Assembly (NCBI GenBank): GCA_002783405.1
Contig: PFGG01000007.1
Location: 62,001 to 126,000, forward strand
Source: a bacterium (Candidatus Blackallbacteria) CG13_big_fil_rev_8_21_14_2_50_49_14
GTDB lineage: Bacteria; Cyanobacteriota; Sericytochromatia; UBA7694
DNA length: 64,000 bases
Reading direction: 5' to 3'
Shown: positions 59,106 through 62,698 of the stretch, one piece after another
Numbering within the stretch: the first letter of the stretch is position 1
Layout: each line of letters starts with the position of its first letter
The notes under the pieces: model-generated
What the model was told of the DNA's origin: nothing
Database searches by the model: none
What the model saw: only the letters and a program-made list of their open reading frames with translations
Made by a program: the position numbers and the translations under genes

Positions 59106-59720
59106 TCAGTTATTGCTGACGCCTGCACTGTGCAGGAGTTCGGTGGTTTTATTAATAATCGCGGCCTGTGCGCCGGTTTTTTGCATAACTTTCTGGCTGG
59201 CATAGCTTGCGCCCCAGCCTACCAACATGCCACCCACCATCACGGGGAAGGAAGAGGCACCCGCTTTGGCCAAAGCAAAGACGGCTACGTTATTGGCAAC
59301 TGAGCTGACACCACTGCTGACAGCAGAGGTCGCCACATCGCCCACCACACGGCCACCGGCTTCTGCCAGGGTGGCTTTGCCACGGAAAGCTGACCAGCCA
59401 TTGCGCACGGTAGAGGTCACTGCGCGTTGAATCACTGCACGTTTTACAGAGGCACCTACATTGCCATAATCGGTGACCACTTGGCCGTTCATTTGGCGAT
59501 CCATGGCAGATTTGGTATCGACATAGGCGTTAAACATGCCCAAAACGGCACCTTCAAGACCATTGGACTGACGGATATAAATATCGGTGGTGCTGAAATC
59601 ATTTGATTTTGTAGCGGCAGCTTTGCCAATGATATGAGCATCGGAATGAACAGGGGTAATGGTACTGTTTTTGGTAAGAATCGGAGTGACAGGAGTAGAA
59701 GAAACGCTTTGAATTGGCAT
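59106..59720 (-). CDS. Small Gly/Ala-rich protein of unknown function
   Basis: 204 residues, no recognised family, no signal peptide. The first ~50 residues are Ser/Thr/Pro-rich and likely flexible. The C-terminal half holds glycine-spaced hydrophobic helices (VSSVANNVAVFALAKAG, FPVMVGGMLVGWGASYASQ) like the repeats of the protein at 22195-23697, although not clearly homologous. AAGGG is upstream of the ATG at 59720 and a perfect TATAAT lies at 59784-59779 on the minus strand, some 60 bases further. The pair of strong hairpins after the stop suggests a well-expressed, separately transcribed gene. Membrane insertion is possible but unproved. Confidence 0.75.
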   Translation of the reverse strand: MPIQSVSSTPVTPILTKNSTITPVHSDAHIIGKAAATKSNDFSTTDIYIRQSNGLEGAVLGMFNAYVDTKSAMDRQMNGQVVTDYGNVGASVKRAVIQRAVTSTVRNGWSAFRGKATLAEAGGRVVGDVATSAVSSGVSSVANNVAVFALAKAGASSFPVMVGGMLVGWGASYASQKVMQKTGAQAAIINKTTELLHSAGVSNN

Positions 59721-59957: not shown

Positions 59958-62075
59958 TCAATAATCAAATCCACTGTTGCCAATAAACTCTCTTAAGATC
60001 GAAGTCGGAGGAACATGATCGGGATAGAGGGCCACAAACAATCCAATCAGCTTTTGCAGGCGGTAAGCCGTTGCATAGGCCGGATGGTCATGGGGAACTT
60101 CCAATAAATACCGTTCAGCATAGACCTTTAAAACAGACAATTCGTAAATCAAAGACGTATCAAAAATCAAATCTGCCTGACTGACAAAGGGAAAAATATG
60201 TTTATGCTCCCCTTCACGAACGGAGGGCCAGCGCAGAATGCTATCGGCCGCATTGGTAGCCCGGCTGTGTCGATCTCTTACAATTCTGCGCAAGAGGCGA
60301 AGATCTGAAGGATTAACCCGGCTGTGTTCATCCAAGGAAAGCGAGGCCATGGGTTGAATAAAGATCCTGAACAGTTGGTCTTCGGGCACTTGGTTCTTGA
60401 GCAGTTTGGGATTCAGGCCGTGAATGCCTTCCAAAAGCAAGATATTATCTGATCCCAATTTCAAGCGCGGCCCCCCTTCAGGCATACTCAATCCTTTGGG
60501 AAAATCATAATGCGCAGTAGCCACCTCTTCCCCAGCCAAAAGCCTTGAGAGATGTTCTGAGAGCAAATCCGTATTGAGCGCTTCAAGACATTCATAGTCA
60601 TACTCTCCATTTTGATCCAGCGGCGTCTCTTCACGGTTGACATAATAATCATCCAGCGAAATATTCAGGGGACGCAGTCCATTGACCTGCAATTGCACAG
60701 AGAGACGTTTAATAAAGGTGGTTTTGCCTGATGAAGAAGGACCGGCAATACAGATAATCCGAATCTGTTCCCGCTCCTCACCAATACGATCCGCAATCTG
60801 GCTGATGCGTTTCTCATGAAAGCCCTCGGCCACGCGTATCAATTGAGAGACCTCCCCATTGATACAGGCACGGTTAAATTCTCCAATACTGGCGATCTTC
60901 ATCGACTCAAGCCAACGGATATTGTCCTGCATCAAATGGGCATAAGAAGCCAGATCATCGGCAGAGGGCCCTTCGCTCGAGGTCGTGAGGATCAGCCCGC
61001 CCTGACTGCCCGCTTGAACGTGGATTTTGCGCAAATAGCCTGCATGGGGCAAAAGCGGCCCACTGCTTACCGCGTAAAACTCACCGCAACTCACCAAAGA
61101 AATCCGGCTATTGCGATAGGTCTGTGCCAGAGCGGCCGCTTCACGCCGATCATTTTCGCTAAAAAAGGGAATGGCTTCTTCCAGCGCCCACCATTCATGG
61201 CGAAAACTTTTTTTCTGACGAATCATTTCTTCCATCATGCCCTGAATTGCTTGAGCCAATACAACCGTTGATTCAGTTGGGGAATTTTCAACGCGAATCC
61301 ATTGCGTGCTGCCAACCGACAAGGCCATGCTCAGTTTAATACCGGGATAGAGGCGGTGCGCTGCTTCAAGCAAAAGCAGGGCAGCACTGTGACGAAAAAT
61401 CCGCTCACCCTCCCAGTGTGCAACGGTCAATGGCTCCAAATAGGCATCCGACATCATGGGCGTATTCAGAGAAACGCATTTGTGGTTGACCAAGGCAGCC
61501 ACCACAGGACAGCCATCTACCTCTTTGGGCAAAAGGGTTTGGGCCTGCGTTCCCGTCGGCACTTCAAAGGGATGGGGTTGCCCTGCAATCTGAATCGTCA
61601 CGTTCAAACGCCGGGGCAAGGAACGCTCCTGGCTCAAGCGCCCAAAACTGTCGGTCATATCGGTCAGCTGCAAACCCAGTAAACTGATCAATATTTCAGT
61701 CAGCTTGAGTGCCAAGGCGGGTTTTTCAGATTTTAAACGGCTAAACGATTCACGGGTCAAACGGGCTGTAAACAGATCGGTCACAGCCTTGACCGAAGCG
61801 CGTCTGACGCGCCCGGTAATCAGCCCCAGTTCACCAACGTGATAACCGGCAGCGATCGACCCCAATTGCAGGCCTGCCCTGCAAATCTGAGCTTGGCCGC
61901 GCAGAATAAAATACATCTCATCGCCTTCTGTGCCCTCCTGAATCAGCACCTCATCGGGTTCCAAAGCGATCGGATCCAGATAGGGCAAAAGCTGATGGCG
62001 ATCCTCGGTATCTGCAAAAACAGTCAGAATATCCAGGTCTTCAGGTTGAAGTACGGGAGGGGTCTGCATTATCAT
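59958..62075 (-). CDS. Fusion of cyclic-nucleotide-binding domain, TGS-like region and uridine-kinase-like P-loop kinase
   Basis: 705 residues with three parts. Residues ~15-130 are a cyclic-nucleotide-binding domain (LLPYLDPIALEPDEVLIQEG, YFILRGQAQICR, GYHVGELGLITGRVRRASVK; the GELGLI cassette plus RRA resembles the phosphate-binding pocket). Residues ~165-235 resemble a TGS domain, followed by a ThrRS-second-domain-like stretch, as in the known nucleoside-kinase family of Thermotoga and others. Residues ~435-640 hold the kinase: Walker A GPSSSGKTTF (~443), LDDYYVNRE, LLLEGIHGLNP and a Lid-like RIVRDRHSRATNA. It probably phosphorylates a nucleoside or related compound, controlled by a cyclic nucleotide (inference). 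Weak ribosome site. Confidence 0.88.
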   Translation of the reverse strand: MIMQTPPVLQPEDLDILTVFADTEDRHQLLPYLDPIALEPDEVLIQEGTEGDEMYFILRGQAQICRAGLQLGSIAAGYHVGELGLITGRVRRASVKAVTDLFTARLTRESFSRLKSEKPALALKLTEILISLLGLQLTDMTDSFGRLSQERSLPRRLNVTIQIAGQPHPFEVPTGTQAQTLLPKEVDGCPVVAALVNHKCVSLNTPMMSDAYLEPLTVAHWEGERIFRHSAALLLLEAAHRLYPGIKLSMALSVGSTQWIRVENSPTESTVVLAQAIQGMMEEMIRQKKSFRHEWWALEEAIPFFSENDRREAAALAQTYRNSRISLVSCGEFYAVSSGPLLPHAGYLRKIHVQAGSQGGLILTTSSEGPSADDLASYAHLMQDNIRWLESMKIASIGEFNRACINGEVSQLIRVAEGFHEKRISQIADRIGEEREQIRIICIAGPSSSGKTTFIKRLSVQLQVNGLRPLNISLDDYYVNREETPLDQNGEYDYECLEALNTDLLSEHLSRLLAGEEVATAHYDFPKGLSMPEGGPRLKLGSDNILLLEGIHGLNPKLLKNQVPEDQLFRIFIQPMASLSLDEHSRVNPSDLRLLRRIVRDRHSRATNAADSILRWPSVREGEHKHIFPFVSQADLIFDTSLIYELSVLKVYAERYLLEVPHDHPAYATAYRLQKLIGLFVALYPDHVPPTSILREFIGNSGFDY

Positions 62076-62107: not shown

Positions 62108-62698
62108 TCAGAATCTCCCTCCTATTTTACCCGCAAAAACAAACAAACCAAGTAAGCCGAGCATCAAAACCGTCAGCAGCATTCTGAGGATCTGGAAAAG
62201 AGCAAAAGCATCCCTCAACAGAAAACCACCTGATGGAGACTGGCACAAAGGCAGCGGAAAATCTTCTAGCAGAACACCCCCCTCCAGATCTTTCTGAATA
62301 TAGAGAAAAGTATATGCTTGGCCTTCTTTCCAAGGCCCTTTGGAATGCAGCAGGATCAAGCGTTTTTCAGCCTTGGGGGCATAAAAATAGCCCATCAGAA
62401 TGCCTTGACGCGTGGGGTGAGGCACTGACTTTTCAAGCCAAAGATTTTCGATCATGCCCTGGCTTAAAAGCCGATTCAAGCGCAAACCCTCACGTAGGAC
62501 GGCAGCCCCAAAAACCAGGCCCAAACAAAGTGCAACCAAGGCTAGAAAATTCAACCCAAAGCTATGCCTGCCAAAGCAAAATTGCCAAAGTGAAGCCAAA
62601 AGCAGCAGTGAACTGAGGCTTGCCAAAGGCAAGCCCATGATTTGAAAAAACTGCAGCCAAACAGGAATTTTTCGAACTGAAGAGAAAATGGGGTTCAC
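62108..62698 (-). CDS. Membrane protein of unknown function
   Basis: 196 residues with hydrophobic stretches at ~18-40 (LASLSSLLLLASLWQF), ~50-68 (FLALVALCLGLVFGAAVL) and the C-terminus (MLLTVLMLGLLGLFVFAG). The soluble loop ~80-160 contains HPTRQGILMGYFYAPKAEKRLILLH and could be a small beta domain. The overall shape reminds me of DUF3592-like proteins, but no firm match. It begins with GTG at 62698. It lies 32 bases upstream of the kinase fusion on the same strand, so they may be co-transcribed. Confidence 0.72.
   Translation of the reverse strand: MNPIFSSVRKIPVWLQFFQIMGLPLASLSSLLLLASLWQFCFGRHSFGLNFLALVALCLGLVFGAAVLREGLRLNRLLSQGMIENLWLEKSVPHPTRQGILMGYFYAPKAEKRLILLHSKGPWKEGQAYTFLYIQKDLEGGVLLEDFPLPLCQSPSGGFLLRDAFALFQILRMLLTVLMLGLLGLFVFAGKIGGRF

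Follow-up and report, generated by a model that had tools for sequence, protein, structure and literature searches.

The minus strand of the 64,000-nucleotide stretch of DNA analysed here (the window) carries, at 59958..62075, a single unbroken open reading frame of 705 amino acids (P0001), with an ATG start and no internal stops, in which a cyclic-nucleotide-binding domain (CNBD) precedes a TGS/SAD 'uridine kinase'. On the residues that it retains, the gene probably encodes a version of this kinase that is gated by a cyclic nucleotide, likely cAMP. Both the kinase family and the sensor are known, but no account of the two being joined was found in the open literature searched.

Domain organization of P0001

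The modules of the gene, and the evidence for each, are as follows.

59958..62075, minus strand: CNBD-TGS-SAD-kinase open reading frame (P0001); ORF call, full-length homologues
61626..62018, minus strand: cyclic-nucleotide-binding domain, residues 20-150 (about); Pfam core 37-114, E 8.5e-13, and Foldseek
61785..61835, minus strand: phosphate-binding cassette GELGLITGRVRRASVKA, residues 81-97; aligned to the PKA RI cassette
61830-61832, minus strand: E82 codon, within the cassette
61803-61805, minus strand: R91 codon, within the cassette
61626..61721, minus strand: long C-terminal helix of the CNBD, residues 119-150, running into the linker; AlphaFold model
61611..61625, minus strand: linker motif RSLPR, residues 151-155; conservation in 44 fused sequences
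61425..61604, minus strand: TGS-like domain, residues 158-217; ThrRS 1nyq match, Foldseek ThrRS 1qf6 and 1nyq
60981..61415, minus strand: ThrRS-type second additional domain (SAD), residues 221-365; Foldseek 1tje, TM 0.70
59961..60767, minus strand: uridine-kinase-fold P-loop kinase domain, residues 437-705; PRK E 5.7e-16, and Foldseek
60717..60743, minus strand: P-loop GPSSSGKTT, residues 445-453; conservation in the 30-member alignment

Pfam, the PDB and the AlphaFold model agree for each module. The match to cNMP_binding (PF00027) covers residues 37-114 and profile positions 3-85 of 89 (48.5 bits, cut-off 27.5), that to PRK/uridine kinase covers residues 440-639 (59.3 bits, cut-off 22), and both families are matched in all 30 aligned fusion members. 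In the middle of the protein, sequence resemblance to ThrRS is weak (1nyq, E 2.4e-5, starting near residue 190), and a helical stretch lies between the SAD and the kinase domain. With target-normalised TM scores, Foldseek places the CNBD with 3gyd and PKA RIa 3pna (0.69-0.71), the TGS-SAD part with the ThrRS editing fragment 1tje (0.70), and the kinase with human UCK2 6n53 (0.74) and T. thermophilus UCK 3asy (0.75). The AlphaFold model (mean pLDDT 89, pTM 0.77) is confident for the CNBD, the ThrRS-like unit and the kinase; pLDDT is below 50 at residues 146-152, a hinge, which means that the placement of the CNBD against the rest of the predicted protein is not settled by the model.

The fusion of a CNBD to a TGS/SAD unit and P-loop kinase, as put forward in the original prediction, is therefore real, given the intact reading frame, the Pfam matches, the structure model and the full-length homologues. 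That it is an assembly artefact, a mis-joined reading frame or chance is ruled out by the 44 distinct fused sequences from many genomes, by their conservation along the whole length and by the purifying selection on the CNBD.

On the same strand, the fusion gene is preceded, at a distance of 32 bases, by a 196-amino-acid reading frame (62108..62698) that has hydrophobic stretches and matches no Pfam family above cut-off. The two genes may form an operon and be transcribed together; this frame is not kept beside the fusion gene in the Myxococcota. Downstream is a 204-amino-acid reading frame (59106..59720, minus strand) with no Pfam matches even at E 1.

Distribution and origin of the fusion

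The fusion is present at full length in four of the five genomes of its own family (Sericytochromatia, Cyanobacteriota), the fifth being 73% complete, and is absent from the rest of the 386 genomes sampled from the phylum. Among the Myxococcota genomes sampled, 25 of 195 carry it, as does one of 40 sampled Riflebacteria MAGs; this MAG has two copies as well as unfused forms, and its fused copies may be contamination or the result of transfer. None of the 297 sampled Acidobacteriota genomes has the fusion, 25 of them having the unfused form. Full-length identity among fused proteins is 55-74% within the family and 43-51% in the Myxococcota. Alignments to the unfused relatives in the Acidobacteriota, the Riflebacteria and some Myxococcota start no earlier than about residues 144-191, unfused homologues matching about residues 153-705 of P0001 at 37-44% identity. 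This agrees with the expectation that the kinase family normally starts at the TGS part, relatives in three phyla aligning only downstream of the CNBD, and the search for CNBD-kinase fusions in other genomes that had been recommended thus returned them from the Sericytochromatia, the Myxococcota and the one Riflebacteria MAG.

In a tree of 73 sequences made from the TGS-SAD-kinase part, with the CNBD left out, the 44 distinct fused sequences all fall, together with three unfused ones, in a single clade with 100% SH-aLRT, which amounts to one gain of the CNBD and about two losses; several independent fusion events are unnecessary given this single clade. L097 and L098, two of the unfused members of the clade, begin with the linker motif RSIPR, which fits loss of the CNBD. 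Within the linker, R151, P154 and R155 are each conserved in 41 of the 44 fused sequences. The four Sericytochromatia sequences group in one clade, and the presence of the fusion in one family of Cyanobacteriota as against its wide presence in the Myxococcota suggests that it reached the Sericytochromatia by transfer from a myxobacterium. The addition of a CNBD at the N-terminus is as first described, but it is not a one-off, being instead a single-origin subfamily found mostly in the Myxococcota.

Neighbouring genes show local synteny only within the Anaeromyxobacter group and within the genus of P0001, with nothing common between phyla. They were dropped as a clue to function, and this lack of conservation counts against assigning a pathway.

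Other arrangements of the kinase were seen. The Riflebacteria have a second paralogue of about 450-480 amino acids (e.g. G256:C7:25874-26851), in which the C-terminal kinase (from about residue 386) is the only part in common and the N-terminus is different. In three Acidobacteriota (G309, G322, G347) the unfused kinase lies inside open frames of 1165 amino acids, which may represent a different N-terminal fusion. A 348-amino-acid relative in a genome of the same class as P0001 (L008, in G010) has neither the CNBD nor most of the TGS-SAD part, and may be a truncated or kinase-only form.

The predicted cyclic-nucleotide pocket

Only G60, G77, G81 and R91 are invariant in the CNBD across the 44 distinct fused sequences. 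R91, the sole non-glycine among them, aligns with PKA Arg209, the phosphate ligand (PMC2246266), and S or T is present at position 94 in all 44. E82, equivalent to the ribose-binding Glu200 of PKA, is present in 33 of the 44, including P0001 and all four Sericytochromatia, and is replaced by S, A or V in the other 11, which belong to one Myxococcota clade and come mostly from cyclase-rich genomes. The complete CNBD, phosphate-binding Arg and GELGLI cassette that had been recognised in P0001 were upheld by this comparison, the Sericytochromatia all having the full cassette. Between P0001 and L005, from two species of the genus, identity is 76% in the CNBD, 65% in the TGS-SAD part and 82% in the kinase, with synonymous sites saturated, which shows that the CNBD is under purifying selection.

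The losses of E82, the alteration of the cassette to HRGET in the Anaeromyxobacter group, and the three fused genomes without class III cyclases (see below) would be in keeping with a CNBD that has degenerated or plays a structural role, in folding, dimerisation or docking, and does not bind a cyclic nucleotide. This is considered rather unlikely, given that R91 is kept in every fused sequence down to about 45% identity, that the cassette is entire throughout the Sericytochromatia, and that within the genus the CNBD is at least as well conserved as the TGS-SAD part.

It is unlikely, too, that the CNBD binds a different ligand, either a nucleotide or another compound carrying a phosphate, such as a product or precursor of the reaction that the kinase catalyses, which would then exert feedback rather than second-messenger control. 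CNB domains are known to switch ligand, to nucleosides in trypanosomatid PKA (PMC10959531) and to haem in CooA (PMC2246266), and the effector here is itself of nucleoside-kinase fold. Against this, the cassette is canonical and its Arg retained, and the genome is rich in cyclases. In the trypanosomatid PKA domains that bind nucleosides the Arg is lost and a Glu gained at the Ala202 position (PMC10959531). The corresponding residue in the 44 fused sequences, G84 in P0001, is A, G or S and never Glu, and a pocket of the nucleoside type is ruled out by this and by Arg91. Six members of the Myxococcota clade (L040, L046, L064, L079, L081, L087) have Ser or Ala in place of the ribose Glu and retain the phosphate Arg; in this clade the loss of the Glu may mark a changed ligand.

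With regard to which cyclic nucleotide would be bound, the residue following R91 is most often Ala (21 of 44), which resembles the PRAAT of the PKA cassette rather than the PRTAT of PKG (PMC2246266) and was counted in favour of a cAMP-type reading. In P0001 itself Arg follows R91, which does not discriminate cAMP from cGMP. The beta2-beta3 loop Gly that co-varies with Arg209 (PKA Gly169) is G51 in P0001, and is found in only 25 of the 44.

Class III cyclases in genomes with the fusion

It was correctly observed from the start that the window contains no cyclase. The genome as a whole encodes 33 CNBDs and 11 class III cyclase domains, the latter all on other contigs, so that the absence of a cyclase from the window is uninformative and the signal could be made from a distant locus. 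Cyclase matches number 3-15 in the three other fusion-bearing Sericytochromatia, and class III cyclases are present in nearly all fused genomes examined. None was detected in G077, G078 and G080, of the Anaeromyxobacter group, where the CNBD is kept, nor in G087 and G088, the two related Myxococcota in which L097 and L098 have lost the CNBD and kept the RSIPR linker. That CNBD loss tracks cyclase loss as a rule fails for L063, another CNBD loss, in a genome with 17 cyclase matches. With one lineage in which it holds (G087, G088) and this exception, the pattern is a hint rather than a correlation.

Identity of the kinase and the ThrRS-like part

The P-loop residues G445, P446, S447, S449, G450, K451 and T453 are invariant in the 30-member alignment, as is the catalytic Asp475, and the RRIxRD segment is invariant or nearly so; on this conservation, kinase catalysis by P0001 is predicted as likely. 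The description of the enzyme as a nucleoside kinase stands in part, in that homology is to PRK/uridine kinase and the fold is that of UCK. It is weaker as to substrate: P0001 scores below cut-off against both Udk models (68.9 vs 220.3 bits for TIGR00235 and 76.5 vs 180 for NF004018), a separate Udk protein in the same genome passes both, and Gly528 is invariant at the aligned base-selecting position of uridine-cytidine kinases, which is His117 in human UCK2 and Tyr93 in the Thermus enzyme. TmUK, the three-domain uridine kinase from Thermotoga maritima, moreover yielded no UMP in vitro in either full-length or truncated form; in the presence of uridine it acted as an ATP phosphatase, and it was suggested to function in the autoregulation of translation (PMC10248530). 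The substrate of P0001 is probably something other than uridine or cytidine. A plain uridine/cytidine salvage kinase under cyclic-nucleotide control, which the Pfam match, the UCK fold (TM about 0.74) and the invariant P-loop and Asp475 would allow, is very doubtful in view of the sub-threshold uridine-kinase score, the genome's own Udk, Gly528 and the inactivity of the T. maritima relative on uridine.

In the ThrRS-like part, the first aligned editing residue, His73, is present in P0001 and variable in the family, while His77, Cys182 and His186 are not kept in P0001 and align with Leu233, Ser and Leu. All four are editing/metal residues of ThrRS.

Comparison with known systems

P0001 has the architecture of the TGS/SAD 'uridine kinase' family, a ThrRS-like TGS and SAD followed by a P-loop kinase. 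TmUK and the three-domain uridine kinase of Treponema pallidum likewise combine a ThrRS-type part with a uridine-kinase-like P-loop domain, a fusion attributed to Wolf, Kondrashov and Koonin (2000), as cited in PMC10248530; TmUK, which is likened to residues 158-705 of P0001 by its described architecture, differs in that no CNBD is reported for it. The canonical Udk/UCK enzymes (TIGR00235) share with P0001 the P-loop fold, the catalytic Asp and the RRIxRD lid region but are without TGS, SAD and CNBD, and P0001 differs from them by its invariant Gly at the base-selecting position and by an insertion before the lid. The TGS and SAD have the fold of the N-terminal domains of ThrRS and of related mitoribosomal subunit chains; P0001, unlike ThrRS, does not keep the editing/metal residues His77, Cys182 and His186 and has no synthetase core.

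The fold of the CNBD and its cassette Arg and Glu are as in the CNB domains of PKA regulatory subunits, the MlotiK1 and SthK channels, and CRP, and the best single-sequence PDB matches are to PKA RI chains. The known domains act with a protein-kinase partner, a channel or a helix-turn-helix, whereas the effector in P0001 is TGS-SAD-kinase. The survey of Kannan et al. 2007, which divides CNB domains into 30 families, does not name this fusion, though it has a catch-all bacterial class mentioning kinases (PMC2246266). No description of a fusion of a CNBD to a TGS/uridine kinase was found in the open full-text literature, to which the search was confined.

A model for gating and its implications

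Against gating by a cyclic nucleotide count the replacement of E82 in 11 of 44 sequences, the three genomes in which no class III cyclase was detected (G077, G078 and G080), and the equivalent of Gly169 in only 25 of 44; for it count R91 in all 44, the lack of a Glu at G84, and the 11 cyclase domains and 33 CNBDs of the genome. Direct control by a cyclic nucleotide is the most economical reading of P0001. A cyclic nucleotide, most likely cAMP from the cell's own class III cyclases, would dock in the CNBD, the phosphate being held by R91 and the ribose by E82, and the cassette would close. The helix of residues 119-150 would then shift, much as happens in the regulatory subunits of PKA and in CNB channels, and the RSLPR linker would relay this shift, so that the TGS/SAD unit would pack differently against the kinase and ATP-dependent kinase activity would change. 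The architecture and its conservation, the single origin, the conserved pocket, the presence of cyclases, and the intact P-loop and catalytic Asp are observed; the binding of ligand, the allostery and its direction, and the substrate are what we infer in this gating model.

It is conceivable, at a low probability, that a second messenger here gates a ThrRS-derived kinase or ATPase that faces RNA or the ribosome. If this is true, binding of cAMP would link cyclic-nucleotide signals in the Myxococcota and Sericytochromatia to translation or to the metabolism of tRNA. Members of the TGS/SAD 'uridine kinase' family occur widely, and what they do has been a puzzle since the fusion was first recognised in 2000. 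A naturally occurring form bearing a CNBD would provide an in vitro switch for probing the function of the family and, if cAMP alters ATP turnover, substrates could be screened in the active state. The fusion also adds a type of effector to the known outputs of bacterial CNB domains.
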